Position numbers and translations under genes: made by a program | In this document: in pieces, positions 5,060 through 23,716 of the stretch | Layout of the letters: every line of letters starts with the position of its first letter | Position numbering within the stretch: the first letter of the stretch is position 1 | Notes under the pieces: model-generated | What the model saw: only the letters and a program-made list of their open reading frames with translations | Databases searched by the model: none | What the model was told of the DNA's origin: nothing | IMG/VR virus record: IMGVR_UViG_3300025141_015469 | Coordinates: 1-46,346 of that record | Origin: a virus | Reading direction: 5' to 3' (one strand) | Length of the DNA: 46,346 bases

Positions 5060-5326
5060 ATGGATATGACAGAAGAAAACCCAGAACTTTTGAAAACAGT
5101 AGAAAAAACAAACGAACTTAAAGAGTGGCTTGTGGGGTATGTTGGAAATAAATACAACCCAGAAGCTGGCGAAGTAAATGTAGAAATGATAATAAAAACC
5201 ATGGCAGAGGAATTTCCTGAATTTCTTTTGGTCTTGGCAGAAGAAAATTTTATACGAGGATACCAACAGGCTCTGGCAGACGTGGACGAGGGCGAGAGAT
5301 TAATGCGAAAAGAGGGAAAGCTTTAA
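5060..5326 (+). CDS. small conserved-type phage protein (88 aa)
   Basis: The start at 5060 is chosen because GGAGG (5050-5054) sits 5 bases upstream; a TTG at 5048 would extend it but lies inside the -10 box. The product is acidic and helical, with EWLVGYVGNKYNPEAGEVNV, then MAEEFPEFLLVLAEENFIRGYQQALADVD. Similar small proteins are recalled from large aquatic phages, with no known function; that recollection is not a database result. Its TAA overlaps the next ATG by one base. Confidence 0.7.
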   Translation: MDMTEENPELLKTVEKTNELKEWLVGYVGNKYNPEAGEVNVEMIIKTMAEEFPEFLLVLAEENFIRGYQQALADVDEGERLMRKEGKL

Positions 5327-8390: not shown

Positions 8391-9658
8391 AAAAGAAAGT
8401 ATTAGTACGAGCACCGGTACTTACCAGATCAGGGTATGGTGAACATTCGCGATTTGTTTTGAGGGCTTTGCGACAACACGAGGACGAAATAGACATTTAT
8501 CTACTCCCAGTTAATTGGGGAAAATGCGGGTGGATATATAATGATGACGAAGAGCGCCGCTGGCTGGACTCCTTGATTAATAAGACGGCCCACTACCACC
8601 AAGAAGGCAACCCACAGTATGATGCCAGCATTCAGGTTACGATTCCAAACGAATGGGAGCGATTTGCGCCAATAAACATTGGTGTGACTGCGGGGATAGA
8701 AACCAACATAGTCGCCCCGGTGTGGCTAGAAAAATGCAATTTAATGGACAAAGTAATTACCATCTCCAATCATTCGAAGAGCGGATTCCAAAACACAGTA
8801 TATGATGCGGTGCACAAAGAGACTGGACAAAAGTTTCCACTGAAATGTACAACGCCTGTAGAGGTTGTACACTACCCTGTTAAAAAATATGAAGAATCAA
8901 AAATCAACTTGAAATTAAAAACGGATTTTAATTTTTTAGCCATGGCGCAATGGGCCGGCCGCAAGAATTTAGAAAATACAATCACTTGGTTTGTTGAAGA
9001 GTTCATTGATAATCCTGAAGTCGGCCTCGTTGTAAAAACGTTTGCTGAAGGTAATTCTGTTATGGATCGGCATAGAATAGAGGATCGCCTAACAAGCCTG
9101 TTGAAAAAATATGAAAATAGAAAATGTAAAGTTTATTTTTTCCATGGCGATATGACGGACCAAGAGATTCATTCTATTTACAAACATCCAAAAATAAAAG
9201 CACTTGTTTCTCTGGCCCATGGCGAAGGGTTTGGTCTCCCGTTGTTTGAAGCAGCATATTCTGGGATCCCTGTAATAGCACCAGAATGGAGTGGCCACTT
9301 AGACTTTCTCTGCGCGCCAAAGAAAGACAAGAAGACTGGTAATGAAAAAATAAAGCCATATTTCGCATGCGTGGAATATGACATACAACCAATAGCAGAT
9401 GAAGTTGTTTGGGATGGGGTGCTGGAAAAGGGCGCTATGTGGTGTTATGCACAGCAAGGCTCTTACAAAATGAGACTAAGAGAAGTATATAAGGATTATG
9501 GAAGATTTAAAAAACAAGCCAATGAGTTGAAAAAATGGGTATGTAAGAATTTTTCACAAGAAGACCAGTATAAAAAAATGTATAACTCTTTAGAAATAAA
9601 AGAAAATTTTGATGTGGAGGACTGGCTAGATAGCCTAGACGTTCAGGTTAATGAATGA
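8387..9658 (+). CDS. GT4-family glycosyltransferase
   Basis: 423 residues, starting at the ATG (8387) that overlaps the previous TGA, with AAAGGA six bases upstream. A longer frame from 8366 would lie within the neighbour. Paralogous in layout to the preceding enzyme: N-terminal loop VLTRSGYGEHSRF, donor-binding EX7E in HGEGFGLPLFEAAYSGIPVIAPEWSGH near residue 280, and an AGRKNLENTI segment marking the start of the second Rossmann domain. The C-terminus ends in an acidic tail. Probable second transfer step of the same glycan chain. Confidence 0.87.
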   Translation: MKKKVLVRAPVLTRSGYGEHSRFVLRALRQHEDEIDIYLLPVNWGKCGWIYNDDEERRWLDSLINKTAHYHQEGNPQYDASIQVTIPNEWERFAPINIGVTAGIETNIVAPVWLEKCNLMDKVITISNHSKSGFQNTVYDAVHKETGQKFPLKCTTPVEVVHYPVKKYEESKINLKLKTDFNFLAMAQWAGRKNLENTITWFVEEFIDNPEVGLVVKTFAEGNSVMDRHRIEDRLTSLLKKYENRKCKVYFFHGDMTDQEIHSIYKHPKIKALVSLAHGEGFGLPLFEAAYSGIPVIAPEWSGHLDFLCAPKKDKKTGNEKIKPYFACVEYDIQPIADEVVWDGVLEKGAMWCYAQQGSYKMRLREVYKDYGRFKKQANELKKWVCKNFSQEDQYKKMYNSLEIKENFDVEDWLDSLDVQVNE

Positions 9659-10485
9659 TTGTTTTTGTAGCTGATTTTTTTGTTAACGAAATCCTCGGCG
9701 GCGGAGAACTAAACAACGAAGAGTTCATACAGATAGCCGCACAGCGCCTCCCAGTAAAAAAAATCAACTCTCACAATGTGACGTTAAATTTTTTGTATGA
9801 GTACAGAGATGCTAATTTCGTAATCGCAAATTATATTAATTTAAGATCAGACGCCAAAGATTATATAACGAATAATTTAAGTTATGTCATTTATGAGCAT
9901 GACCACAAATATTTAGTGAATAGGAATCCAGCATTGTTTGAAGATTTTGTTGCCCCAAAGGAAGCGCTTGTCAATTATGATTTTTGTCGGCGCGCCAAAG
10001 CAGTGTTGTGCCAGTCCGCCTTCCACTCCAACATCGTTAGAAAGAATTTAAATTTAAGCAATATAGTGAATTTAGGGGGCAATTTGTGGTCTAAAGAATC
10101 TTTGGATGCAATAGAACAGTATTCCAACAAAGAAAAAAAGGACGTCTGCTCTATAATGGATTCTCAAATATCTCATAAAAACACCAGGGAGGCGGTGTTA
10201 TATTGTAAACACAAAAATTTAGAATATGAATTGATAGGAAAAAATGATTACCTAACATTTTTAGATAAGCTAAGCAATAACAATAAGCTGGTCTTTTTTC
10301 CAAAAACCCCGGAAACTCTGTCTAGAATTGTTGTCGAGGCCAGGATGATGGGTATGAGCACGATTACAAATAAAATAATTGGCGCCACCGGAGAAGAGTG
10401 GTTCTCTATAAAGGGGAAGGATTTAGTTGACCACATGAGAGAGAAACGAACGACGATCACGAATACGATTTTAAATATTTTTTAA
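9655..10485 (+). CDS. putative GT-B glycosyltransferase
   Basis: 276 residues; start ATGA overlaps the preceding stop. The N-terminus begins with strand-loop VADFFVNEILGGGELNNEEF, similar to acceptor loops of GT4-like enzymes. The C-terminal part, KLVFFPKTPETLSRIVVEARMMGMSTITNKIIGATGEEWF, matches the donor domain of short GT-B proteins (the conserved Glu of VVEAR). It lacks a full EX7E motif and is 140 residues shorter than its neighbours, so donor specificity and activity are uncertain. Context strongly supports a glycan role. Confidence 0.65.
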   Translation: MIVFVADFFVNEILGGGELNNEEFIQIAAQRLPVKKINSHNVTLNFLYEYRDANFVIANYINLRSDAKDYITNNLSYVIYEHDHKYLVNRNPALFEDFVAPKEALVNYDFCRRAKAVLCQSAFHSNIVRKNLNLSNIVNLGGNLWSKESLDAIEQYSNKEKKDVCSIMDSQISHKNTREAVLYCKHKNLEYELIGKNDYLTFLDKLSNNNKLVFFPKTPETLSRIVVEARMMGMSTITNKIIGATGEEWFSIKGKDLVDHMREKRTTITNTILNIF

Positions 10486-10486
10486 A

Positions 10487-11404
10487 ATGAAAATCTTATT
10501 AGTTATAAATAAAACATTGTCTAACGGCAAAGCAGAGTGGCTTGATGGCGGCTATTGGAACCTTTTTTTACCACTAGAAAAGATGGGCCACAATGTTCGT
10601 CTTTACGATACCGTGAGGGGTGAACGCGCCGAGTTTTCAAAAACAGTAGATACATTTAAGCCAGATTTGATCTTTTGTTGCATGACGGGCGACGCGTCCT
10701 TGACGCCAAATGAACCTTGGGAAGAGATAATTCAAGAAACACAAAAAGGTAATTGCAAAACGTTCAATTGGTTTTGTGACGATACTTGGAGGTTCGAAAG
10801 CTTTTCTAGCCAGGTTTGTAATCATTTTCATGTGTGTTCAACGCCGGAAATAGAGTATATTGAAAAGTTTAAAGAAGTTGGATATAACAATATTATATTA
10901 GGCTTTTGGTATACCAACATTGATTTTTATCCCAAGAAAGCTGTCAAAAAGAACGACATTAGTTTTTGTGGGCAGCTAAATTTAGATAGAAGATATTTTA
11001 TTAATTATTTAATAGAAAACGGGATAGACGTAAAACACCATCACGGTTTAACGCCCAAAGAGATGATTCAATCGATTGCAGAGTCAAAGATAGGCATAAA
11101 TTTCAGCAAAAACTATAATGCGAATCCACCAGTGCTGCAAATGAAAGGGAGAATGGTTGAAGTGCCCGCAGCGAATGCTTTATTGTTTACGGAATACGCT
11201 CCCGGGTTAGAAGAGCATTTTATAATCGATAAGGAAGTTATAACCTTTAAATCATCATACGAGATGTTTAAAAAAGCTGATTTTTTGCTTAAAAACCCAA
11301 AGATAATAGAAGAAGTTGCTAATAACGGGCATAAAAGATTTCTGAAAGACCACGAATCTATGGTGCGCTTGACCAGTGCAATAAACAAGATAATGAAACT
11401 ATGA
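10487..11404 (+). CDS. CgeB-like glycosyltransferase
   Basis: 305 residues, one base after the previous stop. The N-terminal half has the DGGYWNLFLPLEKMGH loop and WFCDDTWRF, and the C-terminal half has KGRMVEVPAANALLFTEYAPGLEEHF followed by a helix-rich tail (VANNGHKRFLKDHE). These are hallmarks of the spore-maturation CgeB / glycosyl-transferase 1_2 group, in which the glutamate of MVEVPA sits where GT4 enzymes carry EX7E. Expected to add a sugar to a lipid-linked or protein-linked chain. Ends in ATGA overlap with the next CgeB-like gene. Confidence 0.78.
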   Translation: MKILLVINKTLSNGKAEWLDGGYWNLFLPLEKMGHNVRLYDTVRGERAEFSKTVDTFKPDLIFCCMTGDASLTPNEPWEEIIQETQKGNCKTFNWFCDDTWRFESFSSQVCNHFHVCSTPEIEYIEKFKEVGYNNIILGFWYTNIDFYPKKAVKKNDISFCGQLNLDRRYFINYLIENGIDVKHHHGLTPKEMIQSIAESKIGINFSKNYNANPPVLQMKGRMVEVPAANALLFTEYAPGLEEHFIIDKEVITFKSSYEMFKKADFLLKNPKIIEEVANNGHKRFLKDHESMVRLTSAINKIMKL

Positions 11405-12294
11405 AAATATATATTAAAGAACACAAAAACCATGCGGGGAAATGGATATACGCCGGATATAAATCAGCCTGGGAACAGTTAGGATACGATGTTGAATATT
11501 ATTCTGACTTACACGACATCAAAGAAGAAAATTATCAATTAATGGCAATTGATGCAGATGTAAATTTTAGCAACATTTCTAAACTAGAGAAGGCTGACAA
11601 AGTCTATCTATATGTACAGCCTAATCGATTTCCGCTTCCATGGGGGTCTCACCCTAATTTTGTTAGCCTTTGTCACCCGAGTGTCATCGATGAAATCATA
11701 AAGATGGATAATGTACATAAATGGGCTTTCGGCATCATCACCGACTTTCACGATAAATGGGGGGACGTAAATGAAATACCTTTAGCTTTTGATTCAGTTA
11801 ATTATGCACCGGCAGAAAACGAAAAATATCAGTTTGATGTGTGCTTCATTGGAGGCTGGGCGAACAACGGGTTTGATGAAAAACGAAAAATAATGATACA
11901 GCACTTATCACCATTTAAAGACTCTGGTCTTAAATGTGGGTTCTTTATCGATAGGGGGATATCGCATGCTGAAGAAAATTTAATTTTAAGCAATAGCAAG
12001 CTTGCAATAAATATACACGATGCGTATCAACGCACCTTGGGCCTAGATACAAACGAAAGAACTTTCAAATCTTTAGGGTTGACAGGCCTTTTAGTTAGTG
12101 ATACTATCAGTCAAATAGAAAACTTATTCCCAGAGATGCCAATGTATGATTCACCAGACGAAATGATGAATTTAGTTAAAAAATATATTGACATGGCACC
12201 TCAAGATGTGGTAGACTTAAAGCTGGCGAATAGAAAAAAGATCTTAGACGACCACACCTATATTAGTCGTGCTAAGTACATGAGAGACTTATAA
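11401..12294 (+). CDS. CgeB-like glycosyltransferase, second copy
   Basis: 297 residues with the same overall plan as the upstream gene: an N-terminal domain with HAGKWIYAGYKSAWEQLGYDV, a middle FDVCFIGGWANNGFDEKRK, and a C-terminal NERTFKSLGLTGLLVSDTISQIENLF segment with the usual tail (HTYISRAKYMRDL). The glutamate of NERTFKSLG is in the donor-site position. It probably arose from an old CgeB-type duplication but is very divergent from its neighbour, so likely uses a different sugar or acceptor. It directly abuts the phosphatase gene. Confidence 0.72.
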   Translation: MKIYIKEHKNHAGKWIYAGYKSAWEQLGYDVEYYSDLHDIKEENYQLMAIDADVNFSNISKLEKADKVYLYVQPNRFPLPWGSHPNFVSLCHPSVIDEIIKMDNVHKWAFGIITDFHDKWGDVNEIPLAFDSVNYAPAENEKYQFDVCFIGGWANNGFDEKRKIMIQHLSPFKDSGLKCGFFIDRGISHAEENLILSNSKLAINIHDAYQRTLGLDTNERTFKSLGLTGLLVSDTISQIENLFPEMPMYDSPDEMMNLVKKYIDMAPQDVVDLKLANRKKILDDHTYISRAKYMRDL

Positions 12295-12615
12295 ATGGTA
12301 ATATTTATTGATATAGACGAAACAATCTGCATATCCCCAGAGGACAGGGATTATAATAAATCTGTACCTATTGTAGAAAATATTCAAAAAGCAAATAAGT
12401 TATATGATGACGGCCATACTATAATATACTGGACAGCTAGGGGTACCGTCACTGGTATTGATTGGAGACAAACAACGCAAGAACAATTTAAAAAATGGGG
12501 CGTTAAACACCATGAGCTTAAAATGGGAAAACCGTATTATGATGTTTTTATTGATGACAAGAATATGAATGTGAAGGATTGGAATGAAAGTAGCTTTAGT
12601 AATACCGAGTTATAA
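12295..12615 (+). CDS. HAD-superfamily phosphatase, capsule-biosynthesis type
   Basis: 106 residues, a minimal HAD domain without a large cap. Motif I is DIDET (Asp6, Asp8, Thr10), motif II is YWTARG, and motifs III/IV are represented by the lysine of MGKPYYD and by FIDDKN. Such small enzymes occur in capsule/LPS clusters and remove phosphate from sugar phosphates. Its last 32 bases are overlapped by the GT2 gene in another frame. A natural substrate could be a sugar or 2-keto-3-deoxy sugar phosphate made by neighbouring enzymes, which is inference. Confidence 0.8.
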   Translation: MVIFIDIDETICISPEDRDYNKSVPIVENIQKANKLYDDGHTIIYWTARGTVTGIDWRQTTQEQFKKWGVKHHELKMGKPYYDVFIDDKNMNVKDWNESSFSNTEL

Positions 12616-13321
12616 CTCGTCTGATTTTTTGTCTGACTGTGTACAATCTGCAACTTCACAATCCTACGACAATTTAAAAATTTATATATATGATAATGAA
12701 AGTATAGACGGCAGTTATGAGTTGGCTAAAAAATTAGCTAGCGAAAATAAATTAATCGATGTGGTACAAGTAAAGAATTTTTATAAAAATTCCTACAGAG
12801 AGGCTTTTGACCACTCTTTCGAAAATTTAGATTTTGACTACATAACTTTTCTAGCGTCAGATGATTACATTTCAAAAGAATATATTTCTTCTTATATGTC
12901 GATAATATCTAAAAGCTCAAATAATATAAAGTGTGTTCAAAGCCACGCACAGGGAGTTATGAATGGCAGAATAATAGATACTTTGTCTCACAGCTACAAA
13001 AGCTTAAGTTCATTTAAAAAGCAGTGTTTGATTAAAAGCCCTGTAGTGACGCCAACCGTCATGTATCACAAATCAATATATGAACATTTAGTACCTCAAG
13101 CACATATCAGCAACTCTGTTGCGTTTGCCGGCGCCGAAGACTATGACACGTATTGTAACTTGGCGGATAAGGAAATATTTATTTATCCAATACCAAAAAT
13201 GTTGGGATATCATTATAGATGGCATACCAAACAAAACACCTGGCAGGTTAAAAAAAATAAAGAAAACATAGACTATGATAAAATGATACAAGAATATTGG
13301 AGTGAAAAATGGAAAGTTTAA
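12584..13321 (+). CDS. GT2-family glycosyltransferase
   Basis: 245 residues, GT-A fold. The N-terminus MKVALVIPSYNSSDFLSDCV is the classic GT2 opening, DNESIDGSYE binds the nucleotide, and the metal-binding DXD equivalent is FLASDDYIS near residue 94. The C-terminal part contains GAEDYDTY (acceptor-site ED) and a YHYRWH segment. Inverting transferases of this type build O-antigen and capsule chains. AAGGA sits upstream inside the phosphatase gene. It is translationally linked to the NeuB-like gene by a 13-base overlap. Confidence 0.87.
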   Translation: MKVALVIPSYNSSDFLSDCVQSATSQSYDNLKIYIYDNESIDGSYELAKKLASENKLIDVVQVKNFYKNSYREAFDHSFENLDFDYITFLASDDYISKEYISSYMSIISKSSNNIKCVQSHAQGVMNGRIIDTLSHSYKSLSSFKKQCLIKSPVVTPTVMYHKSIYEHLVPQAHISNSVAFAGAEDYDTYCNLADKEIFIYPIPKMLGYHYRWHTKQNTWQVKKNKENIDYDKMIQEYWSEKWKV

Positions 13322-14400
13322 TAAAAGAAAATATTTTTAAAGATCTGTTCGTTCTTGAATTAGCTAGTAATCACTGGGGTAGCCTAAAGAGAGGAAAGCA
13401 GATTGTTAAGCAATTTGCAAAAGTGGTAAAGAAACACAACATCAAAGCCGCCATAAAACTACAGCTAAGAGATTTAGACACCTTTATACATAAAGACCAC
13501 ACAGGCGATGGCGCAAACGTTGAGCTAAAGTCGCTTCCAAAAAAAACCAGATATATACAAAAAATATCAAGAACTAGATTGTCAAATCAAAATTACAAAA
13601 AGCTAATAGAATACATTAAAAAGATGGGCTGTATACCAATGGCAACACCATTTGATGAACCATCAGTTGATCTTTGTGTAGAAATGGGACTTGGCATACT
13701 TAAAGTGGCTAGTTCTGATATCAATGATTGGTTGTTATTGAATAAAATGGCCTCGACAAAACTACCAGTCATTGTATCAACCGGCGGCGCCAGTGAAAAG
13801 CAAATCGACGATTTTGTAAAATTCTTTAAGAAAAGAAATGTTCCCATTGCAATAAATCATTGTGTTTCAAAATACCCTAGTGAAGATGGAGAGCTAGAGC
13901 TAAATCAGATTGATTTTCTTAAACAAAAGTACCCAGATATAACTATTGGATTTTCTACTCATGAATATACAGACTGGCACTCTTCCATGCACATTTCATA
14001 CGCTAAAGGAGCCAGAGCTTGGGAGCGGCACATAGACATTCCATACCCAGAAGGCCACGAACAGAAAGAAATTACAAAATATTGTTCCACCCCTGAGCAG
14101 GTGGATATATGGTTTTCTGCGTTTAAAAAAGCTAAAATTATGTGTGGTTCAACAAACACAAAAGAGCGAAGGATAGTCGATAATAAAGAAGCAAAATACT
14201 TACAAGCTTTACACCGAGGTCTTTACTTGAAAACAAGCTTAAAGAAGGGTGATGCTATAACTTTAGATTGTTTATACAGCGCTGTGCCTTTTCAAGCAGA
14301 TATAAACCACTTAAGCAGTAGAAACTTTATTAATGAAGAGTATATATGTACAAAAGACATGAAAAAAGACGAACCACTCACAGCAGACAAAATAGCATGA
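13309..14400 (+). CDS. neuB: NeuB-like sialic/nonulosonic acid synthase
   Basis: Family members condense phosphoenolpyruvate with an N-acetyl-hexosamine-type sugar to form a 9-carbon ulosonic acid. 363 residues: TIM barrel with ELASNHWGS (residues 17-25), AAIKLQLRDLDTF, KVASSDINDW, VIVSTGG, the metal-ligand motifs GFSTHEY and WERHIDI, then a C-terminal SAF (antifreeze-like) domain (HRGLYLKTSLKKGDAI). Both NeuB domains are present at the usual length. No NeuC epimerase and no NeuA CMP-transferase lie in the window, so the product need not be sialic acid itself. The gene symbol denotes family only. Confidence 0.85.
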   Translation: MESLIKENIFKDLFVLELASNHWGSLKRGKQIVKQFAKVVKKHNIKAAIKLQLRDLDTFIHKDHTGDGANVELKSLPKKTRYIQKISRTRLSNQNYKKLIEYIKKMGCIPMATPFDEPSVDLCVEMGLGILKVASSDINDWLLLNKMASTKLPVIVSTGGASEKQIDDFVKFFKKRNVPIAINHCVSKYPSEDGELELNQIDFLKQKYPDITIGFSTHEYTDWHSSMHISYAKGARAWERHIDIPYPEGHEQKEITKYCSTPEQVDIWFSAFKKAKIMCGSTNTKERRIVDNKEAKYLQALHRGLYLKTSLKKGDAITLDCLYSAVPFQADINHLSSRNFINEEYICTKDMKKDEPLTADKIA

Positions 14401-16136
14401 AAGTCTCTGATATAATAATTAATTTTTTAGAAGTAAAAGGAATTTCAGATGTTTTTTGTATTTCTGGGGGTGGATGCATACACATTGTTGATTCTTTAAG
14501 AAAAAGCAACAAAATACAAACAACTTGTGCGCACCATGAACAAGCTTTATTGATGGCCGCGGAAGGATATACTAGGCTTTCAAACAAAGTGTGTGCAAGT
14601 GTTGTAACCACTGGCCCGGGCAGCACAAATGCAATAACAGGCTTATTGGGAATGTGGACTGATAGTATCCCTTCAGTTGTAATATCGGGTCAAGTTTCTA
14701 GATCCCAAATGTCAAAAGGAACGGGCTGCCGCCAAATAGGAGATCAGGAATACGATATTATTAAAAGCGTCTCCTCGATGACTAAGTACGCTAAAACAAT
14801 CAACAATCCCATTGAAATTGTTTCAGAGCTGGAAAAAGCTTTTGATATTGCAACCAGCGGTAGACCGGGCCCAGTATGGCTTGATATACCATTGGATGTT
14901 CAAGGCGCCGCGGTGCCTGATAATTTAGTGGTGTATAAATCTCAAAAAAAAGAAAAAAATATTTTAAGTAAGGAGCAGGTCGATAGTATCGAAAGCTTAT
15001 TAAAGCAAAGTAAAAAACCTTTGTTTGTCGTTGGAAACGGTATAAGACTATCAAATAGTTATGATCTGTTTAATCGCTTGCTAGAATCTTTCAATATCCC
15101 TGCAGTCACTGGTCCGCACTCTGGTGTGGATTGTATTGACAATACTTATGAATATTATATGGGAAGAATAGGTATCTTAGGGCAAATTACTTCAAATAAA
15201 ATAGTGCAAGATGCCGATCTTTTAATATGTTTGGGGACTAGACTCCCAGTCAAAATGACTGGATATGATGTTAGTAAGTTTTCCCCCAAATCAAAAAAAA
15301 TTCTTGTCGACATAGATGAAAATGAAATCAATAAACACAATTTCAACGTTGATTTAAAAATACAAATGGACTTGAATACTTTTTTAAATCAGTTTAAAAA
15401 TATTGATTTTAAGACGGATATCCACCGGTGGAGAAGTGATGTAAAACAAATAAGGTCGGAGCAAAAATATTATTACAACAAACATGAGTCTTTAAAAGAT
15501 TATGTTAGTTTTTACTATTTTACAAGCAAAGCTAAAGAGTATTATGGAGACTGCCCTATCGTAACCAGCAATGGCACCGCTCATGTTGTTACTTTACAAA
15601 TGTATAATCTCAACAAGAACCAAAGAATGTTTACTAATGTTGGCTGTGCTAGCATGGGGTATGGACTGCCCGCGGCAATTGGCGCCAGCATAGCTAATAA
15701 AAAAAGTAAAACAATTTGCATTGAGGGCGACGGGTCTATTATGATGAACCTTCAAGAGCTACAAACTGTTGTGAGTGAGCAATTACCCTTAAAAATAATA
15801 TTAATAAATAATGAAGGATATCTTTCTATTAAAATGACACAGGAGTCTTTTTTCCAGGGAAAAGAGTTTGCTAGTGGTCCGAATAGCGGTGTTACGCTGC
15901 CAGACATGGAAAAAGTTTCAAAAGCTTTTGACATACCATATTTTTCTATAAAAAACAACAGTCAGATTGATAGTATTATGCTAAAGGCAATGTCTAGTTC
16001 AGGCCCTTCGATTGTAGAGGTTTTTGCTCATCCTTTCGAAAGACATGAGCCGAAAGTCATGCACAAAGGAATCGGCCCCGATGGTAAAATAATACCTGGC
16101 GAATTGACAGATATGAAAATCAGAGAGGGGTTTTGA
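14397..16136 (+). CDS. ThDP-dependent enzyme, acetolactate-synthase-like (YerE-like candidate)
   Basis: 579 residues from the ATG that overlaps the NeuB stop; the longer frame from 14346 lies inside neuB. Catalytic Glu48 (CAHHEQALLMAAEGY), the central FAD/ADP-type domain (KKPLFVVGNGIR), and the C-terminal ThDP signature GDGSIMMNLQEL ending with INNEGY are all present. In LPS clusters such enzymes include YerE, which transfers a two-carbon unit from pyruvate to a 4-keto-3,6-dideoxy sugar to give a branched sugar. The RfbH-type dehydrase downstream would supply such a keto sugar, so a branched-sugar role is attractive but unproven. A general acetolactate synthase is less likely: no regulatory subunit gene is nearby. 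Confidence 0.82.
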   Translation: MKVSDIIINFLEVKGISDVFCISGGGCIHIVDSLRKSNKIQTTCAHHEQALLMAAEGYTRLSNKVCASVVTTGPGSTNAITGLLGMWTDSIPSVVISGQVSRSQMSKGTGCRQIGDQEYDIIKSVSSMTKYAKTINNPIEIVSELEKAFDIATSGRPGPVWLDIPLDVQGAAVPDNLVVYKSQKKEKNILSKEQVDSIESLLKQSKKPLFVVGNGIRLSNSYDLFNRLLESFNIPAVTGPHSGVDCIDNTYEYYMGRIGILGQITSNKIVQDADLLICLGTRLPVKMTGYDVSKFSPKSKKILVDIDENEINKHNFNVDLKIQMDLNTFLNQFKNIDFKTDIHRWRSDVKQIRSEQKYYYNKHESLKDYVSFYYFTSKAKEYYGDCPIVTSNGTAHVVTLQMYNLNKNQRMFTNVGCASMGYGLPAAIGASIANKKSKTICIEGDGSIMMNLQELQTVVSEQLPLKIILINNEGYLSIKMTQESFFQGKEFASGPNSGVTLPDMEKVSKAFDIPYFSIKNNSQIDSIMLKAMSSSGPSIVEVFAHPFERHEPKVMHKGIGPDGKIIPGELTDMKIREGF

Positions 16137-16137
16137 T

Positions 16138-16782
16138 ATGAAAATACTGTTAACTGGCAATACCGGCGGCATTGGAAGCTGCATTGAAGAAAAACTGAAA
16201 CAATGTGGAGTGGACATAGTTGGCATAAACAGCAAAATTTGTGATTTATCAAATGTGAAAAACATATCTTACTTTTTACGAGATCACGAGTGTTTTGATG
16301 GTATGGTCCACTGTGCAGGCGTAAACCCGATTAAATCATATAAAGATATAAAACAAGAAGATTTTCAAAAAGTTTTTAATATCAATACCTTTAGTTTTAT
16401 AAAAATGTGCCAAGACATTAATTTTTCTGATGGAAGCAACATAATAGCTATTGGTTCGCTGTGGGCGACTGGTACAAAGGAAGGTAGAGGACAATATTCC
16501 ATGACTAAGCACGCCTTGTATGCTGCAGTTAAATCTTTATCTTTGGAAATGTGTGATGATAATATAAAAGTCAATATGATATCTCCCGGCTTTGTAGACA
16601 CGCAGATGACAAGGGATAATAATTCTATAGAAACTATAAAAAAAATAAACAAATATATTCCTTTGGGGCTAACAAAGCCCATAGAAATTGCTAAAATGTG
16701 CGAGTACTTGCTAAAAAATAACCAATCCATCACTGGACAAAATATTATTATTGATAGCGGGTATTCAATCAAAAATATTTAA
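16138..16782 (+). CDS. short-chain dehydrogenase/reductase
   Basis: 214 residues, classical SDR. Cofactor loop TGNTGGIGSCI (residues 6-16), VHCAGVNP, and the catalytic set Ser107 (AIGSLWA), Tyr120 and Lys124 (QYSMTKHA), with the MISPGFVDTQM loop afterwards. Length is slightly short for the family (about 250), with a compact N-terminal half. It follows the ThDP enzyme by one base with GAGGGG upstream, consistent with reducing the keto group left by that enzyme or oxidising a cyclitol made by the next gene. Confidence 0.86.
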   Translation: MKILLTGNTGGIGSCIEEKLKQCGVDIVGINSKICDLSNVKNISYFLRDHECFDGMVHCAGVNPIKSYKDIKQEDFQKVFNINTFSFIKMCQDINFSDGSNIIAIGSLWATGTKEGRGQYSMTKHALYAAVKSLSLEMCDDNIKVNMISPGFVDTQMTRDNNSIETIKKINKYIPLGLTKPIEIAKMCEYLLKNNQSITGQNIIIDSGYSIKNI

Positions 16783-16798
16783 TTAAAGCGGAATAAAA

Positions 16799-17884
16799 AT
16801 GAATTTTAAAATTGATAACAAAATATTAGAAGTACAAAGCTTTTATGAAAATAGATTTGAAGTTGCATCTCAGCCAATGAAGTATCTTGTTTCTTTAACG
16901 GATAGAGAACCTTTGGAGTGTGTTAAAGAAGTATATGAAGGTGGCGATGTTATCTTAATAGATAAAAAATTAGTTCCTTTGTATGGTTTTAATTCTTTGA
17001 ACAATGCAGTCATATATTCTGTTGAAGCGACTGAAGAAAATAAAACTATTGAAACATGCCTAGATTTAGTTAAGTTTTTATCTAGCAATGGCTTCAATAA
17101 GGGAAATACGTTACATGTTATCGGCGGCGGCATAATCCAAGATATTGGATCATTTACTGCTGCTGTATATAAAAGAGGTGTAAAGTGGATTCTTTTTCCA
17201 TCTACTTTGTTATCCATGGCAGATTCCTGCATTGGAGGCAAAAATGGCATTAATTACAACGGGACTAAAAATCAATTAGCGCTTTTTTCTTCCCCAGCCT
17301 CCGTTATAATATGTACCAAATTTATAAAAACCCTAGAGAGTAAAGAAATAAAATCTGGCTTGGGCGAGGCTTTAAAACTATTGTCCATGGGTGGCTCTAG
17401 TTTACTAAATCAATATAAATCCATGGTTAAAAATGGTAAAGTTGTAGATGACTCATTCTATCTTGATATTATTAAAAACTCACTTGCTGTAAAAAAAGAA
17501 GTAATAGAGGTTGATGAATTTGAATTAACCATAAGACAATGTTTAAACTATGGCCATACTATTGGCCATGCACTTGAGACTCTTTCAAAACATGACATAC
17601 CTCACGGTGAAGCTGTTGCCATTGGTATGTTATTGGTAAACAGACTTTACAACACAAATACTGAAAAATTAGATACAGCATGTAAAGAGCTGATAGATTT
17701 TAAAAAATTAAAAAATGTTGACTTAACAGGATTAAAAGACCTCATTCTCAAAGATAAAAAAACCTTTGGCAATCAAACAACATTTATAGTATTAAAAGAA
17801 TACGGTGAGACTGTTTTCATAAAAGAAACAATAAACGATGAGTTCATTGATCGCATCATCACAGAAATAAACAATATAAAATGA
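16799..17884 (+). CDS. sugar-phosphate cyclase of the 3-dehydroquinate synthase superfamily
   Basis: 361 residues. NAD-binding GGGIIQDIGSFTAAVYKRG (109-127), then STLLSMADSCIGGKNGIN with Asp142 and Lys148, and Lys157. Zinc ligands Glu190 (GLGEALK), His253 (LNYGHTIGH) and His269 (PHGEAV) are all intact, as is Lys193. The superfamily includes AroB and the cyclases that turn sedoheptulose 7-phosphate or glucose 6-phosphate into cyclitols. A sugar kinase directly overlapping downstream and a glycan-cluster location favour a cyclitol or unusual-sugar role over aromatic biosynthesis; sequence alone cannot decide. All catalytic residues suggest an active enzyme. Confidence 0.85.
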   Translation: MNFKIDNKILEVQSFYENRFEVASQPMKYLVSLTDREPLECVKEVYEGGDVILIDKKLVPLYGFNSLNNAVIYSVEATEENKTIETCLDLVKFLSSNGFNKGNTLHVIGGGIIQDIGSFTAAVYKRGVKWILFPSTLLSMADSCIGGKNGINYNGTKNQLALFSSPASVIICTKFIKTLESKEIKSGLGEALKLLSMGGSSLLNQYKSMVKNGKVVDDSFYLDIIKNSLAVKKEVIEVDEFELTIRQCLNYGHTIGHALETLSKHDIPHGEAVAIGMLLVNRLYNTNTEKLDTACKELIDFKKLKNVDLTGLKDLILKDKKTFGNQTTFIVLKEYGETVFIKETINDEFIDRIITEINNIK

Positions 17885-18834
17885 AAAATTTATTATTTAT
17901 AGATTTTGGTGCATCTAGAATAAAAAGCATTGAATATAATGTAGAAAAAGATTTATTTTATAAACAAAAAGAAGTGCCATCGCCATTTCTTTATAAGCAC
18001 GCTATACCAAAGGATGAAGTTTCTAATGTTTTAACAAATGTTATGAAAAAACACGATAGTTTCGACGCTGTTTTTATATGTACCATTTTAGGGGGCGGCT
18101 ATGTCGACGATATATATTATTCATGGAAATCTAGTAAAAATGTAAAAAACAAAACTTGCCTTATTAGTCATATATTTAAACACGACTCCACATACCATCT
18201 ACACAAAGATCACGGTGGCCTCCAAGACAGAATAAAGCAGCTGGGCATTTTGAATGAAAAAATAGTATACAGCGCGCTCGGTGATACTGATTGCGTTAAA
18301 AGATCTTTTTTATTGAAAAATGATGAATGTATTGTTAATTTGGGCACCGGATCCCAAGTTATCAGAAACAAAAGTATTATAAAGTATATACCCTCTGGAA
18401 GAGCTTTAAATTGTTTTGAAAACTTTTTCAAAAACCTTGATGTTAACATGTTTGAGATATTTAAAAATTTATCTACGGACCAATTAATAGCATCAGATAT
18501 GAATTTTAATCTCAATATCTTCGAACAAGCTTTACACTACGATTCAACTGTTTGCGGCTCTATAACAAATATAAGAGAAGATAATTTTACTTTAATAAAT
18601 TTTATCTGTTCATTGTTTAAAAATTATTTAGATCAATATATTCCATTAATAAAAAGCAATAAAAAAATATATTTGACCGGGGGCATATCAAGAAAGTATC
18701 CCGTAATAAAAGAATATTTCAAAGTAAAAACAAACGCTGAAGTTATTTTAAATTCAAGACACATAGAGGATACCTTTTTGGGTATTAAAGAAAAGGTGCT
18801 AGCAGATTATGAACATATTAATCACGGGATCTAA
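17881..18834 (+). CDS. ASKHA-fold sugar kinase (FGGY-like, short)
   Basis: 317 residues with the three ASKHA nucleotide motifs: phosphate-1 FIDFGASRIKS (residues 6-16), phosphate-2 IVNLGTGSQVI near 157-167, and adenosine motif IYLTGGISRKYPVI near 264-277. It resembles FGGY carbohydrate kinases but is about 150 residues shorter. Overlap with the cyclase as ATGA suggests tight coupling. It could make the cyclase's substrate (for instance a heptulose 7-phosphate) or phosphorylate its cyclitol product, as kinases in known cyclitol pathways do. Low-GC sequence. Kinase fold is confident, substrate is not. Confidence 0.75.
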   Translation: MKNLLFIDFGASRIKSIEYNVEKDLFYKQKEVPSPFLYKHAIPKDEVSNVLTNVMKKHDSFDAVFICTILGGGYVDDIYYSWKSSKNVKNKTCLISHIFKHDSTYHLHKDHGGLQDRIKQLGILNEKIVYSALGDTDCVKRSFLLKNDECIVNLGTGSQVIRNKSIIKYIPSGRALNCFENFFKNLDVNMFEIFKNLSTDQLIASDMNFNLNIFEQALHYDSTVCGSITNIREDNFTLINFICSLFKNYLDQYIPLIKSNKKIYLTGGISRKYPVIKEYFKVKTNAEVILNSRHIEDTFLGIKEKVLADYEHINHGI

Positions 18835-19636
18835 TGGATTCATAGCCAGAAACATATCAAAAAAAATAAATAAAAAACATAATATTATCGAAACCAACAG
18901 AAAAACTTTAAATGTTTTAAATACTGAAATGGTGACTGATTTCTTAATAAAAAACGATATCAACTTTGTTATACACACAGCAGTGTCTGGGGGCCGTAGA
19001 ACTAAACAAGATGAGATATCCGTATTAATAGATAACTTAATAATGTTTAGAAATTTTTTGATAAATAAAGATAAGTTTGATGGGCTGATACATTTTGGCT
19101 CAGGGGCCGAGTTTGACCGCAGAACAAGTATAAGTCTAGCAAAAGAGAGCACTGATGCAAATCCCATAGATTATTATGGGCTTTCAAAGAAAATCATCAG
19201 CAATGAGATTAAAAATACAAATAATTTTTTTAACTTGAGAGTCTTTGGGTGTTTCGGGCTCGATGAAAAAGAAGACAGGTTTATAAGATCGTCCATCAAG
19301 AATGTCAGAAGTGGCAAAAAAATAAAAATACACCAAAACCGCAATATGGATTTTATATCTGTAGATGATCTTTGTCTGGTAGTAGATCATTATATTGAAA
19401 ATTATCACAAAAAAACACTACCAAAAGATATAAACTTGTGTTATAATAATCAAATGTCCCTGTTGGACATATCAAATAGAATTAACACGCTATTAGAAAA
19501 GCCTATAGAAAATGTTCTTATTGAGAAGAGAGGGAACAATAACGACTATAGTGGCGATGGTACTCTATTGGAACAGCTAAATTTAAAATTAAGTGGTTTT
19601 GATAAAAGCTTAACAAAGATTATTAAAGGTGTATAA
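18809..19636 (+). CDS. NAD-dependent epimerase/dehydratase (extended SDR)
   Basis: 275 residues. N-terminal Rossmann loop ITGSNGFIARNI, FVIHTAVSGG, LIHFGSGAEFD in place of the usual S-S/T motif, and the catalytic YYGLSKK (YxxxK). NLRVFGCFG follows. This is the nucleotide-sugar epimerase/reductase architecture, somewhat shorter than typical (about 310). It overlaps the kinase by 26 bases and abuts the RfbH gene. A 4-keto reductase or 3,5-epimerase step on the NDP-keto sugar formed by neighbours is the simplest role. Confidence 0.8.
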   Translation: MNILITGSNGFIARNISKKINKKHNIIETNRKTLNVLNTEMVTDFLIKNDINFVIHTAVSGGRRTKQDEISVLIDNLIMFRNFLINKDKFDGLIHFGSGAEFDRRTSISLAKESTDANPIDYYGLSKKIISNEIKNTNNFFNLRVFGCFGLDEKEDRFIRSSIKNVRSGKKIKIHQNRNMDFISVDDLCLVVDHYIENYHKKTLPKDINLCYNNQMSLLDISNRINTLLEKPIENVLIEKRGNNNDYSGDGTLLEQLNLKLSGFDKSLTKIIKGV

Positions 19637-20983
19637 ATGTCGGAAAGAATAAATAAAATACTTGATTTAGTTGAAGAACACGTAGAAGAGAAAAATAAAA
19701 GTACCTGGAAGCCAGGAGAAGATTGGGTGTCATACTCAGGCCCTGTGTTCACATCAGATGAATATAAAGCTGCAATAGAAGCGTTATTAAGCGGTTGGCT
19801 GATTTTTGGGGAAAACGGAAGACTTTTTGAAAAGGAGTTTGTTGATCATTTAGGCAAGAAACACGGTGTGTTAACAAATTCTGGAAGCTCTGCTAATCTT
19901 TTGATGGTCGCTTCTTTAACTTCACAAGACAACTATATCAAAAAAAGATGGAATCTTGAAAAAGGCTCCAAGTTTATAACCCCAGTTGTTTGTTTCCCAA
20001 CCACAGTAAATCCTTTAATCCAGTGCGGATTCGAACCGGTCTTTGTGGATGTTACCTTACCAGATGTTAATTTAGACTTAGATGAAGTGGAAAATCTGCT
20101 GAAGAAAGACACTAAGGGAGAAATTAGGGGGATAGTCTTTGCTCACGTTTTAGGAAACCCTCCGGACATGGATAGATTAATGCATTTGATAGAAAAATAT
20201 AATTTAGTTTTTTTAGAAGATACTTGTGATGCTCTTGGCTCTACATATGATAATAAAAAACTAGGATCTTTTGGTCACATTTCAACTTGTTCTTTTTTTC
20301 CTGCGCACCATATGACTATGGGAGAAGGGGGCTTTGTCGCGACCGATTCAAATAAAATGAGACAAATTATTTCAAGCTTTAGAGATTGGGGCCGTGCCTG
20401 TTATTGCAACACTATTTGCCCGGGAAATGTAACGTCACGTACTGCATGCGGCAATAGATTCCAATCTTGGCTCCCGGGCGCCCCAACCGCTGTATATGAT
20501 CATAGATATGTTTTTGATGAAATCGGATATAATCTCAAGCCCTTAGACATCCAAGCAGCCATTGGTTTGCAACAAATTAAAAAGCTTGATTATTTGGATG
20601 AAGCAAGAAGAACTAATTTTAAAAGAATGACAGAGATATTTTCTGAACATTGCGATAAATTGCATTTACCAGTTGCAACAGAAAAAGCCGATCCAAGTTG
20701 GTTTGCTTATATGATGACGGTTAAGAAAAAAGCCAACTTCAAACGACAGGATCTTGTAAACCACCTTGAAACAAACCGAATACAAACACGCTCTTATTTT
20801 GCGGGCAATATTCTTTATCACCCGGGTTACCAGAAGCTGGCAAAGAAGTATGGAAATCTACAACAACGATTTCCAGTTGCTCACCACGTTACTTTTAACT
20901 CCTTCTTTCTAGGAACATATGCTGGCTTGACAGAAGAGAAGATAAGCTATATTGGAAGCGTGGTTAAGGATTTTTTTAAATGA
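19637..20983 (+). CDS. rfbH: RfbH-type NDP-6-deoxy-4-keto-hexose 3-dehydrase (E1)
   Basis: PMP- and [2Fe-2S]-dependent enzymes of this type remove the C3 hydroxyl from CDP-6-deoxy-4-keto-glucose on the way to 3,6-dideoxy sugars. 448 residues, DegT/aminotransferase fold. Diagnostic: the internal-aldimine lysine is replaced by His224 in FFPAHHMTMGEGG. A cysteine cluster (Cys255, Cys257, Cys261, Cys271) follows WGRA, where E1 holds its iron-sulfur centre. GYNLKPLDIQAAIGLQQ is present as in known RfbH. The partner flavin/iron-sulfur reductase (E3) and the CDP-glucose genes rfbF/rfbG are absent from this window, so partners must be elsewhere or supplied by the host. Confidence 0.9.
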   Translation: MSERINKILDLVEEHVEEKNKSTWKPGEDWVSYSGPVFTSDEYKAAIEALLSGWLIFGENGRLFEKEFVDHLGKKHGVLTNSGSSANLLMVASLTSQDNYIKKRWNLEKGSKFITPVVCFPTTVNPLIQCGFEPVFVDVTLPDVNLDLDEVENLLKKDTKGEIRGIVFAHVLGNPPDMDRLMHLIEKYNLVFLEDTCDALGSTYDNKKLGSFGHISTCSFFPAHHMTMGEGGFVATDSNKMRQIISSFRDWGRACYCNTICPGNVTSRTACGNRFQSWLPGAPTAVYDHRYVFDEIGYNLKPLDIQAAIGLQQIKKLDYLDEARRTNFKRMTEIFSEHCDKLHLPVATEKADPSWFAYMMTVKKKANFKRQDLVNHLETNRIQTRSYFAGNILYHPGYQKLAKKYGNLQQRFPVAHHVTFNSFFLGTYAGLTEEKISYIGSVVKDFFK

Positions 20984-21930
20984 AAGTGGTATATGTGACA
21001 GGCTGTTTGGGCTTTATTGGCTCTTATATAACCAGAAAGTGCCTTGAAAAAGGTTGGATGGTGCGTGGAATAGATAAAGTAACATACGCAGCGAATGAAA
21101 GCCTTTTGGGTGAATTTGAACAATACGCCAATTTTGTTTTTGAAAAAAAAGATATAAAAGATTTAAGCTTTTTATATGATTGTGATTATGTCATTAACAC
21201 CGCTGCCGAATCTCACGTTGGAAATAGTATTATAAACAGTGATGAGTTTATTAGTAGCAATATAGTTGGGGTTAAGAACCTGCTTGATCTAGTAAGGCAT
21301 AAGCCAGAAAACTGTAATAAAAGACCAATATTTTTTCACTTCAGCACAGATGAGGTTTATGGAGATATTGATGAAGGAGCGCATACGGAAAAAGATTTAT
21401 TAAAGCCCAGCAATCCTTATTCCGCGGCCAAGGCAGCAGCTGACATGCTAGTGCTTGCTTGGGCAAGAACATACGGTGTTGAATATGTAATTTTAAGGCC
21501 GACCAATAATTATGGAATAGGCCAATATCCAGAAAAACTTATTCCGATTTCTATCAAAAATTTGATGAGAGGTAGGAAAATTAGACTCCACAATAATGGC
21601 ACGCCTGTTAGGAGTTGGTTGCATGCAGATGATACTGCTGAAGCTGTCATAACCATTGTAGAAAGTGGTAAAATAAATGAAATATACAATGTTGCTGGCG
21701 GCTTCGAGCAGACTAATATCGATACGACTAAAAAAGTTATCAACAGTTTTTATGGAACTTTAGAAAACTGGCAAGAAAACATAGATTTTTCTTATTCACG
21801 CCAAGGCCAGGACGTGCGTTATGCTTTAAACGATGATAAGCTAAGAGCTTTAAGCTGGCGCCCAAAAAAGATTTTTGATACTGAAATAGGTAAAATAGTA
21901 GAACATTATAAAAAAAACTGGAGATGGTAA
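20980..21930 (+). CDS. RmlB-like NDP-hexose 4,6-dehydratase
   Basis: 316 residues. VTGCLGFIGSYI, DKVTYAANES (the RmlB substrate loop), STDEVYGDI with the Asp-Glu catalytic pair, PYSAAKAAAD (YxxxK), NNYGIGQYPEKLIP and VRSWLHADDTAEA are all features of dTDP-glucose 4,6-dehydratase. The product is a 4-keto-6-deoxy sugar nucleotide. Linked by an ATGA overlap to the RfbH-type gene that would consume such a keto sugar. Whether the nucleotide is dTDP, CDP or another cannot be read from the sequence. Confidence 0.88.
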   Translation: MKVVYVTGCLGFIGSYITRKCLEKGWMVRGIDKVTYAANESLLGEFEQYANFVFEKKDIKDLSFLYDCDYVINTAAESHVGNSIINSDEFISSNIVGVKNLLDLVRHKPENCNKRPIFFHFSTDEVYGDIDEGAHTEKDLLKPSNPYSAAKAAADMLVLAWARTYGVEYVILRPTNNYGIGQYPEKLIPISIKNLMRGRKIRLHNNGTPVRSWLHADDTAEAVITIVESGKINEIYNVAGGFEQTNIDTTKKVINSFYGTLENWQENIDFSYSRQGQDVRYALNDDKLRALSWRPKKIFDTEIGKIVEHYKKNWRW

Positions 21931-21931
21931 T

Positions 21932-22813
21932 ATGAAAACAGGTTGTTTAATATATTTTTATGGTAAAAAATATGAAAATATTGGACTATGCGCCTTAAAT
22001 AGTTTTAAAAAGCACCACCCAGAGATTATGCTACATCATGTAAACGAGTTTAACGAAAGTGAATATGAAGTAAGTAATTTTAAAGATACAGCCGGCTGCG
22101 GCGTATATAAATATATGCTAGCTGTTGAAATAATGAAAAAGAATAATTACGAAAAATTTATAATATTGGGCGCGGATACTATAACATGTGCCAGATTAGA
22201 TGAATTTTTAGATGACAATGAACACGATATTTTAGCTTCGCTAGATTATCCCTATCAGTTGTCTGAATGTGGTATAATACTTTCTCCAAACCATGAAACA
22301 CATTTAAATGCAGACGTGGTTTGTTTTAATAAGATAAGACCTATTATTGATATTATAAAAATATCTAAAAATTTTCCAGCATATGCGGAACAAGGTGGTT
22401 TAAATTATGTTGCATGGTCAAACAATTATAAACATTCTTGTAAAATAGTTGATGGGCCTTATTTAAAAAGCAATGTTGTTTATAATGTTCGTTCAAAAGG
22501 AAATATGTGTCTTCCATATGAATATCAAGATCATTCTGCAACAACTGGCGAACCACCAAAATTTCCTCCTTATGAAAAGCCATGGGGCCCTCATTTAAAT
22601 AAATTTTATGTTAAAGATAAAAAACTTTACACTAAAGATCATAAACAAATAAAAGTATGGCACTATTGTGAGGGTCTTGGTAACTTAAACGAAGAAAACT
22701 TTGTTAAAATAATGAATAATTATATTTTTAAATGGTTTAATAAAGAAACCAAACAATTTTTCAAGGAACAGTGTGGCGCCGACGACTTCTTCGAAAAGGA
22801 GTTTACACTTTAA
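21932..22813 (+). CDS. putative GT-A glycosyltransferase
   Basis: 293 residues. N-terminal MKTGCLIYFYGKKYENIGLCALNSFKKHHPE, then KFIILGADTITCARLDEFL, the position and form of a GT-A metal-binding D-x-(D/T) motif on a strand end, with CGVYKYMLAVEIMKK before it as in GT8-like and nucleotide-diphospho-sugar transferase families. The C-terminus has VWHYCEGLGN. Expected to be a cytosolic transferase for one of the deoxy sugars made next door. Family assignment is tentative. Confidence 0.65.
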   Translation: MKTGCLIYFYGKKYENIGLCALNSFKKHHPEIMLHHVNEFNESEYEVSNFKDTAGCGVYKYMLAVEIMKKNNYEKFIILGADTITCARLDEFLDDNEHDILASLDYPYQLSECGIILSPNHETHLNADVVCFNKIRPIIDIIKISKNFPAYAEQGGLNYVAWSNNYKHSCKIVDGPYLKSNVVYNVRSKGNMCLPYEYQDHSATTGEPPKFPPYEKPWGPHLNKFYVKDKKLYTKDHKQIKVWHYCEGLGNLNEENFVKIMNNYIFKWFNKETKQFFKEQCGADDFFEKEFTL

Positions 22814-22816
22814 ACA

Positions 22817-23716
22817 ATGAAAGTTTTAGTAACAGGGGGGACTGGGTTTGTAGGTAAGAGATTACAAAAATATAGACCAGAGTGGATTTATGTCTCCTCC
22901 AAAGACTGTAATCTTTTAAACAAAGACGACTGTAATTGGCTTTTTAAGGAATACAAACCAGATGCAGTAATACATTTAGCGGCCAGAGTAGGCGGGATCA
23001 AAGAAAACAAAAACAACCAGGCGTCTTTTTATTATAAGAACACTATAATAAATACAAATGTGCTAGACTGTGCATATAAAAATAATATTAAAAAAGTTTT
23101 ATCTTCTTTAAGTACGTGCGCATTTCCGGATGTTTTACCAGAATATCCATTCACCGAAAAGGACCTATTCAGAGGCCCTCCAGCACAAACTAATTTTTCA
23201 TACGGATATACAAAAAGATCTCTTCACGTACAAACCATTTCTTATAGAAAACAATACGGTGTAAACTATTCTACGTTTTGCCCTTCGAATATTTATGGCC
23301 CCGGAGACAATTTTAATAATGAGAGTTCTCATTTTATACCAGCCTTAATTAGAAAGTATTCAGAAGCCAAAGATGGAGACACATTAGAATTGTGGGGAAC
23401 TGGAAAACCATTGCGGCAACAACTTTACATCGACGATCTAATAAAGATTATACCTTTGTTGCTGGAAAAGCACAATTCTGGCGCGCCCATAATAGTGGCG
23501 CCAAATGAAAATTTGTCGATATCAGAAATGGCAAATATATTGCATAAAAATGTCAAAAAAAATGTTAAAATAGTTTATAATAATAGACTAGATGGACAAT
23601 TCAGAAAAGACGGATCAAACAAAAAATTGCTTAAATTGTTAGGTGGTTTTAATTTTACTAAGTTTGAGGACGGCGTCACAAAAACATATGAATGGTATAA
23701 ACAAAACAAACAATAA
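22817..23716 (+). CDS. fcl: GDP-L-fucose synthase
   Basis: Converts GDP-4-keto-6-deoxy-mannose to GDP-L-fucose by 3,5-epimerisation and 4-reduction. 299 residues. [21 protein letters not shown] followed by N-rich [22 protein letters not shown] (catalytic Cys), [12 protein letters not shown] (YxxxK), and [14 protein letters not shown] are the family signatures in order. AAGGAG is upstream. It overlaps gmd by 29 bases; in most genomes the order is gmd-fcl, here it is fcl-gmd. Confidence 0.9.

Follow-up and report, generated by a model that had tools for sequence, protein, structure and literature searches.

A phage glycan operon joining NeuB-like, YerE-like and sugar phosphate cyclase genes: a candidate route to carbocyclic branched sugars

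Long carbon branches or carbocycles are features of only a few known surface sugars, the examples being caryophyllose, caryose and bradyrhizose. The thiamine diphosphate (ThDP)-dependent carboligases YerE and ErwE use cytidine diphosphate (CDP)-4-keto-3,6-dideoxyglucose as their substrate, with ErwE preferring 4-hydroxy-2-oxo acids (PMC12247030), and JanthE is a further YerE-like enzyme (PMC12188165). Caryophyllose, which is made with the YerE-like MMAR_2332, has a 1,3,4,5-tetrahydroxyhexyl branch (PMC5706390) and therefore a CH2 at C2′, fitting a 3-deoxy-2-oxo acid as donor. We also considered a possible link to bradyrhizose, whose gdh cluster includes unnamed sugar genes besides a 4,6-dehydratase (PMC4743980). 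The literature surveyed gives no substrates for most YerE-like enzymes and no characterisation of the bradyrhizose genes. Here we analyse a virus contig of 46,346 bases (IMG/VR record IMGVR_UViG_3300025141_015469; ‘the window’ denotes this entire stretch), in which five adjacent genes on the + strand, at 13309–18834, encode a NeuB-like synthase, a YerE-like ThDP enzyme, a small short-chain dehydrogenase/reductase (SDR), a sugar phosphate cyclase and a shortened FGGY-type kinase. Baseplate and PhoH genes identify the contig as that of a tailed phage.

The system is best filed with the YerE/ErwE-type branched-sugar pathways, to which it would add a predicted carbocyclisation module. It shares with the YerE, ErwE and MMAR_2332 pathways (yersiniose, erwiniose and caryophyllose) an RfbF/G/H-type synthesis of 4-keto-3,6-dideoxyhexose, a predicted C4 branching by a YerE-like ThDP enzyme and an extra reductase. 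It differs from them in being phage-borne, in a donor acid that apparently comes from an in-operon NeuB-like enzyme, and in an extra SDR–cyclase–kinase module that predicts ring closure. On a slight balance of probability, we read the operon as making a nucleotide-activated 4-C-branched 3,6-dideoxyhexose for surface glycans, of the caryophyllose type and with its branch carbocyclised. The more specific proposal, which we hold tentatively and would not yet call probable, is that a 3-dehydroquinate synthase (DHQS)-type cyclase acts on a ThDP-made branch linked to a nucleotide sugar, so that phage-encoded and bacterial surface glycans would bear higher-carbon sugars of a new, carbocycle-containing class, with the 2-oxo donor NeuB-made. 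An undescribed sugar pathway had been suggested in the original prediction, which was made from the letters of this DNA, and our analysis supports it; literature searches for earlier reports of a NeuB/ThDP/DHQS cluster found none.

An open reading frame check and domain searches confirm all five genes, and the expected close coupling was borne out: the NeuB and ThDP genes overlap by 4 nucleotides (nt), as do the cyclase and kinase genes, gaps of 1 and 16 nt separate ThDP from SDR and SDR from cyclase, the kinase overlaps the next gene by 26 nt, and every product except the kinase has strong domain matches. A first contig with the block was found from the ThDP protein; with two-sequence alignments as queries, the viral contigs recovered then numbered 44 for NeuB, 14 for ThDP and, counting close ones, about 12 for the cyclase. 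Alignments were required, a single-sequence cyclase scan of viral contigs having found nothing, and matches in the ‘phages’ collection mostly traced to badly assembled records with housekeeping genes of bacteria, or to contigs lacking annotation. The same five genes recur in the same order in about 20 other viral contigs, so the block is not a chance arrangement. Gene mapping gives a viral core of dehydratase, NeuB, ThDP and reductase genes. Of the 22 distinct viral contigs with a cyclase, most have SDR, cyclase and kinase between ThDP and reductase (the L038/L043 lineage is missing the kinase, and gene order is altered in L038/L043 and L061), and in 15 contigs all three are missing. In a ThDP tree, phage enzymes whose loci carry the cyclase module and those whose loci lack it form sister clades, each fully supported; the one row of the other clade marked ‘no cyclase’, L004, comes from a contig truncated within the ThDP gene, and the module is also absent in the L031–L034 group. 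Cyclase-bearing L061 and L038/L043 branch earlier in this tree, which makes a joint loss of the three genes probable.

The block was also looked for in bacteria, as had been suggested, through a single genome scan that gave 80 loci with 23 viral cyclases as queries. It was found in Elusimicrobiota and other loci, where one operon holds glucose-1-phosphate cytidylyltransferase, CDP-glucose dehydratase and RfbH together with the five block genes and the reductase; the gene order of the block is conserved across many contigs and phyla. ThDP-free bacterial cyclase loci, which we call class II, instead carry a GmhA-like SIS isomerase, Gfo/Idh, 2-hydroxyacid dehydrogenases, an HpcH aldolase and a cytidylyltransferase. 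Because NeuB and ThDP occur without SDR, cyclase and kinase, and SDR and cyclase without NeuB, ThDP and kinase, the genes form two modules and not one five-gene unit: a core of NeuB-like and ThDP enzymes, and an option of SDR, cyclase and FGGY-type kinase. The independent occurrence of genes that the original prediction had named as a refutation thus holds in part, between the modules.

Related clusters were seen alongside these. Widespread ThDP-free clusters of an SDR and a TIGR04425 cyclase in Bacteroidota and others (L126–L171), with the class II genes just listed and a YhcH-like gene too, may represent another undescribed carbocyclic sugar pathway. In loci that lack the cyclase module (L009, L014, L019, L021, L029), its place between ThDP and reductase is often taken by one or two genes of about 252 and 174 amino acids (aa), apparently methyltransferase-like. 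A contig binned as Thaumarchaeota (L123) has genes 38–76% identical to the glycan genes of this phage and is probably a misbinned viral contig.

The ThDP gene (14397–16136, + strand, 579 aa) starts at the ATG at 14397, within the NeuB stop, and not at 14346; a relative has the same start. Its product matches the N, M and C thiamine pyrophosphate (TPP) domains of Pfam at 1e-27, 7e-28 and 2e-36, carries HHEQ at residue 46 and EGDGS at residue 443 with a canonical GDG motif, and is closest in the PDB to JanthE (8rph, 5e-110; 372 bits versus 250 bits for acetolactate synthase II). By these comparisons acetolactate synthases are the more distant group and the protein is a predicted YerE-like carboligase, which supports the carbon-branching step proposed for it. 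Acceptor-type genes are present in the window as an RfbH-type sugar 3-dehydrase (19637–20983, + strand, 448 aa), whose 467 bits against NF011936 exceed the curated cut-off of 423, and a nucleoside diphosphate (NDP)-glucose 4,6-dehydratase (20980–21930, + strand, 316 aa; TIGR01181 299 bits, cut-off 365). The place of the latter is occupied in bacterial loci by a CDP-glucose 4,6-dehydratase scoring above its cut-off. In one locus, L092, glucose-1-phosphate cytidylyltransferase (RfbF), CDP-glucose 4,6-dehydratase and RfbH are all above curated cut-offs, therefore pointing to CDP-4-keto-3,6-dideoxyglucose as the acceptor, as with YerE and ErwE. An extended SDR of the RmlD/epimerase type (18809–19636, + strand; PF01370 1e-18), a putative branch-ketone reductase, is kept in viral loci both with and without the cyclase. 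As a separate observation, a YerE-like ThDP gene occurs in 76 of 248 Elusimicrobiota genomes, with two or three copies in some, a frequency that suggests branched sugars are common in this group.

The NeuB-like protein (13309–14400, + strand, 363 aa; PF03102 5e-39, best PDB match 3g8r) is consistent with the earlier idea of a condensation with phosphoenolpyruvate (PEP). It shares with the NeuB/PseI nonulosonate synthases the Pfam NeuB fold and the metal and PEP residues (H218 and H241, aligned with the NeuB metal histidines, and the PEP lysine K132). However, its 119–121 bits reach none of the equivalog cut-offs of 340–400, and Trp23 replaces a Glu of the NeuB sugar pocket (‘NHEG’ becomes ‘NHWG’). 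No cytidine monophosphate (CMP)-sugar synthetase gene was found in the window either, and among the viral NeuB loci examined only L061 has one.

What replaces this enzyme elsewhere is informative about its role. Every one of the 44 viral contigs found with NeuB as the sole query carries ThDP, including those with no cyclase. The 32 loci with both ThDP and cyclase, many of the loci here being contigs of metagenome-assembled genomes and the counts depending on thresholds, comprise 12 with NeuB, 9 with an HMGL aldolase, 7 with an HpcH/HpaI-type aldolase, 1 with NeuB and HMGL and 3 with none, whereas any of the three donor-type genes is found in just 2 of 48 cyclase loci without ThDP (p 4e-16, although the loci are phylogenetically related, so that p-values overstate their independence). 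An independent sample selected by ThDP only, from gammaproteobacterial, Elusimicrobiota and Bacillota sets and mostly without a cyclase, has RfbH near ThDP in 50 of its 68 loci. Exactly one donor type is present in 51 of them (15 NeuB, 7 HMGL, 29 HpcH; 17 have none) and two together in 0/68, an outcome reached in 0 of 200,000 shuffles. The HMGL-type aldolase scores highest against 4-hydroxy-2-oxovalerate aldolase, under its cut-off, and all three types are known or expected producers of 4-hydroxy-2-oxo acids. Because three unrelated types that form such acids interchange beside ThDP, the NeuB-like enzyme most likely makes the ThDP donor acid, a role suggested by gene substitution.

The cyclase (16799–17884, + strand, 361 aa; DHQ_synthase PF01761 2e-32) scores best against TIGR04425, an AroB-related putative sugar phosphate phospholyase (cyclizing), at 289 bits (cut-off 400), and has 247 bits against aroB (cut-off 305), reaching neither threshold. 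It resembles TIGR04425 members also in its SDR pairing; the two scanned members that do pass the cut-off lie in ThDP-free clusters with a SIS isomerase and a cytidylyltransferase. The small SDR (16138–16782, + strand, 214 aa; PF13561 2e-34) is a recurrent partner: in 63 of 76 bacterial loci a member of its family immediately precedes the cyclase. The catalytic residues are intact, as first stated: compared with Escherichia coli AroB, the protein keeps D142, K148, K157, N158, E190, K232, R246, N250, H253, H257, H269 and K320. These twelve positions are essentially AroB-type in the window enzyme and in 22 other viral, 29 class I and 33 class II cyclases, and a thirteenth, K193, is variable. Some of them are presumably contacts of the carboxylate of 3-deoxy-D-arabino-heptulosonate 7-phosphate (DAHP), and the pattern as a whole suits the DAHP-like 3-deoxy chain that our model would require.

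With AroB itself, the enzyme thus shares the fold, all checked active-site residues and, by prediction, the nicotinamide adenine dinucleotide (NAD)/metal chemistry, but in a quick tree with only five AroB rows its family stands apart (97–98 by the Shimodaira–Hasegawa-like approximate likelihood ratio test, SH-aLRT) and does not cluster inside AroB, the placement that the original prediction had named as a refutation. Legionella-like and clostridial genomes carry true AroB, above its cut-off, alongside this cyclase. With cyclases resembling 2-epi-5-epi-valiolone synthase (EEVS) it shares the sugar phosphate cyclase superfamily, and is remote in sequence: at five discriminating positions the window has K/R/N/H/K where a ValA-like viral group has M, D/E, D, P and mostly M. 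The latter group is confirmed as EEVS-like by its best PDB match, ValA, at 5.5e-84, and forms a separate clade in the same tree, whereas the window cyclase finds AroB structures at the top and ValA at just 83 bits. Sub-cut-off scores, tree, residues and coexisting true AroB therefore argue that the cyclase is neither a shikimate enzyme nor an EEVS; we rejected a role as an auxiliary copy of host shikimate AroB on the score, the separate branch and the coexistence. In the tree, the window sequence is the neighbour of L061, close to class I sequences from bacteria, although support there is weak; assembly of the block may thus have happened more than once. Independently of this family, the viral contigs with EEVS-like cyclases (L073–L091, for example L090:9001–9633; ValA 4p53, 5.5e-84) have them near dehydratase/aminotransferase-like genes, and possibly represent a phage sedoheptulose-7-phosphate cyclase family.

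The last of the five genes (17881–18834, + strand, 317 aa) gave no match in Pfam, NCBIfam, PHROGs or PDB searches. Its longer relatives match FGGY_N at 8e-12 to 2e-18, and its AlphaFold model (mean predicted local distance difference test score, pLDDT, 94.9) is closest in Foldseek to FGGY glycerol kinases (E 1.6e-10, template modelling (TM) score 0.73). Asp135, at the conserved catalytic position, and a GTGSQ motif are invariant, and the phage form is shorter by some 100 residues in the FGGY N-terminal region. Through these relatives and the predicted fold, the protein qualifies as a probable FGGY-type kinase. It is present in 20/22 viral loci with NeuB, ThDP and cyclase versus 0/15 without the cyclase, in 12/13 bacterial loci with NeuB and cyclase versus 1/16 with aldolase and cyclase, and in 0/60 ThDP-sampled loci without cyclase. 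Cyclases of this superfamily require a phosphate leaving group, and the near confinement of the kinase to NeuB–cyclase loci suggests that it supplies this phosphate. An aldolase could bring the phosphate with a phosphorylated aldehyde and NeuB, acting on a free sugar, could not, so a kinase would be needed where NeuB and cyclase meet, which places the cyclase after the NeuB or aldolase step. Ring closure by aldol reaction would consume the 2-oxo group that ThDP needs, so the cyclase most probably acts after ThDP.

In the pathway that we propose, a 4,6-dehydratase and the RfbH-type enzyme would form an NDP-4-keto-3,6-dideoxyhexose, and the NeuB-like enzyme would join PEP to an unphosphorylated short aldose to give a 3-deoxy-4-hydroxy-2-oxo acid. 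The YerE-like enzyme would decarboxylate this acid and transfer the remaining acyl unit onto the keto sugar at C4, leaving a tertiary alcohol that bears an α-ketone branch. The kinase may then phosphorylate the far end of the branch, or that of the donor before the ThDP step. The cyclase, through NAD and loss of phosphate, would close the branch onto its own ketone by the 3-dehydroquinate synthase mechanism, with C4 of the sugar taking the place of the DAHP carboxylate, and the small SDR would reduce the ring ketone. The core logic of the first three steps appears well supported by family identity and gene substitution; the later three and their order we infer from co-occurrence. The product, the sequence in which kinase, ThDP enzyme and cyclase act, and what the reductase does are likewise predictions.

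Cyclisation could instead come first, with kinase, cyclase and SDR making a cyclitol aldehyde to which the NeuB-like enzyme adds three carbons before ThDP attaches the result to the 4-keto sugar. That order would account for NeuB and ThDP working without the cyclase module, on a different aldehyde, for the ThDP type tracking cyclase presence, and for class II clusters that join SDR and cyclase with an HpcH aldolase and a cytidylyltransferase. It leaves unexplained why the kinase pairs with NeuB but not with aldolases in cyclase clusters, and cyclase products known to us are ketones, not aldehydes; we regard it as unlikely. Slightly less likely still are two separate sugars. In that case a carbocyclic acid resembling quinate would arise through NeuB, kinase, cyclase and SDR, in a sideline of the shikimate route, and ThDP would use pyruvate for a yersiniose-like branch. 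The AroB-type residues, the tie of the kinase to NeuB plus cyclase and the mechanistic resemblance of NeuB to DAHP synthase would suit this, yet NeuB remains with ThDP in viruses and bacteria when cyclase, SDR and kinase are absent, and aldolases substitute for NeuB beside ThDP even where there is no cyclase. The C7-cyclitol route from sedoheptulose 7-phosphate raised in the original prediction, with an EEVS-type cyclase and a kinase, recalls known C7-cyclitol clusters and could draw on the GmhA-like isomerase of class II. It now seems improbable: the AroB-type residues at all five EEVS-differing positions argue against it, as do the 83-bit ValA match and the separate viral EEVS-like clade. 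Least probable, and hardly credible to us, is an ordinary CMP-activated sialic-type acid among unrelated glycan genes packed together. The NeuB Pfam family and the frequent mosaicism of phage glycan clusters speak for it; a CMP-sugar synthetase in just one of the viral NeuB loci examined, the far sub-cut-off equivalog scores and the gene order conserved across contigs and phyla speak against it.

Several observations weigh against the proposed branch-then-close pathway itself; the relatedness of the loci noted above is one of them. A recognised donor enzyme is missing from three Legionellaceae clusters, as it is from 17 of the 68 loci sampled by ThDP, and L092 holds NeuB together with an HMGL aldolase. 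NeuB and cyclase occur without a kinase in L038/L043 and L144 (and in L206, at a contig end), and a kinase accompanies an HMGL aldolase in L121 and L255. The phage dehydratase resembles deoxythymidine diphosphate (dTDP)-type more than CDP-type enzymes. Finally, SDR and cyclase without ThDP are common in class II, so the ancestral substrate of the cyclase need not be a ThDP product.

The five genes lie within a longer run of tightly packed + strand genes (12584–24701), in which adjacent pairs overlap by at most 74 nt or are separated by at most 16 nt, and which continues beyond 18834 to about 24701. Upstream, a family 2 glycosyltransferase gene (12584–13321, + strand; PF00535 5e-17) overlaps the NeuB start and follows a gene for a small HAD-like protein by sequence motif, possibly a phosphatase (12295–12615, + strand), which has no match in a Pfam search and recurs with 65–75% identity beside NeuB in many viral contigs. 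Glycosyltransferase-like genes with several Glycos_transf_1 and Glyco_trans_1_2 matches occupy 7122–12294, and this stretch together with the block is a phage glycan island. Downstream come the extended-SDR reductase, the RfbH homologue, the 4,6-dehydratase, a protein without Pfam match and guanosine diphosphate (GDP)-fucose-type genes; of the last, a GDP-fucose synthase-like gene and a GDP-mannose 4,6-dehydratase (453 bits, above the cut-off) close the glycan operon at 22817–24701. Elsewhere in the window are a transfer-messenger RNA gene at the contig start (91–462; tag ANDNVEFDYALAA) and, at 5326–6033, a weak match to the metalloprotease domain PF07737 (24 bits, under the cut-off of 27.4).

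These results offer a rule open to testing, that each YerE-like ThDP gene is accompanied by one enzyme forming a 2-oxo acid. They also give a NeuB-type enzyme a proposed role outside nonulosonate synthesis and point to genes by which carbocyclic branched sugars might be made. As the enzymes form two swappable modules, the pathway should be separable for laboratory testing. That phages carry and swap these modules suggests that such sugars matter in phage–host surface recognition or exclusion.

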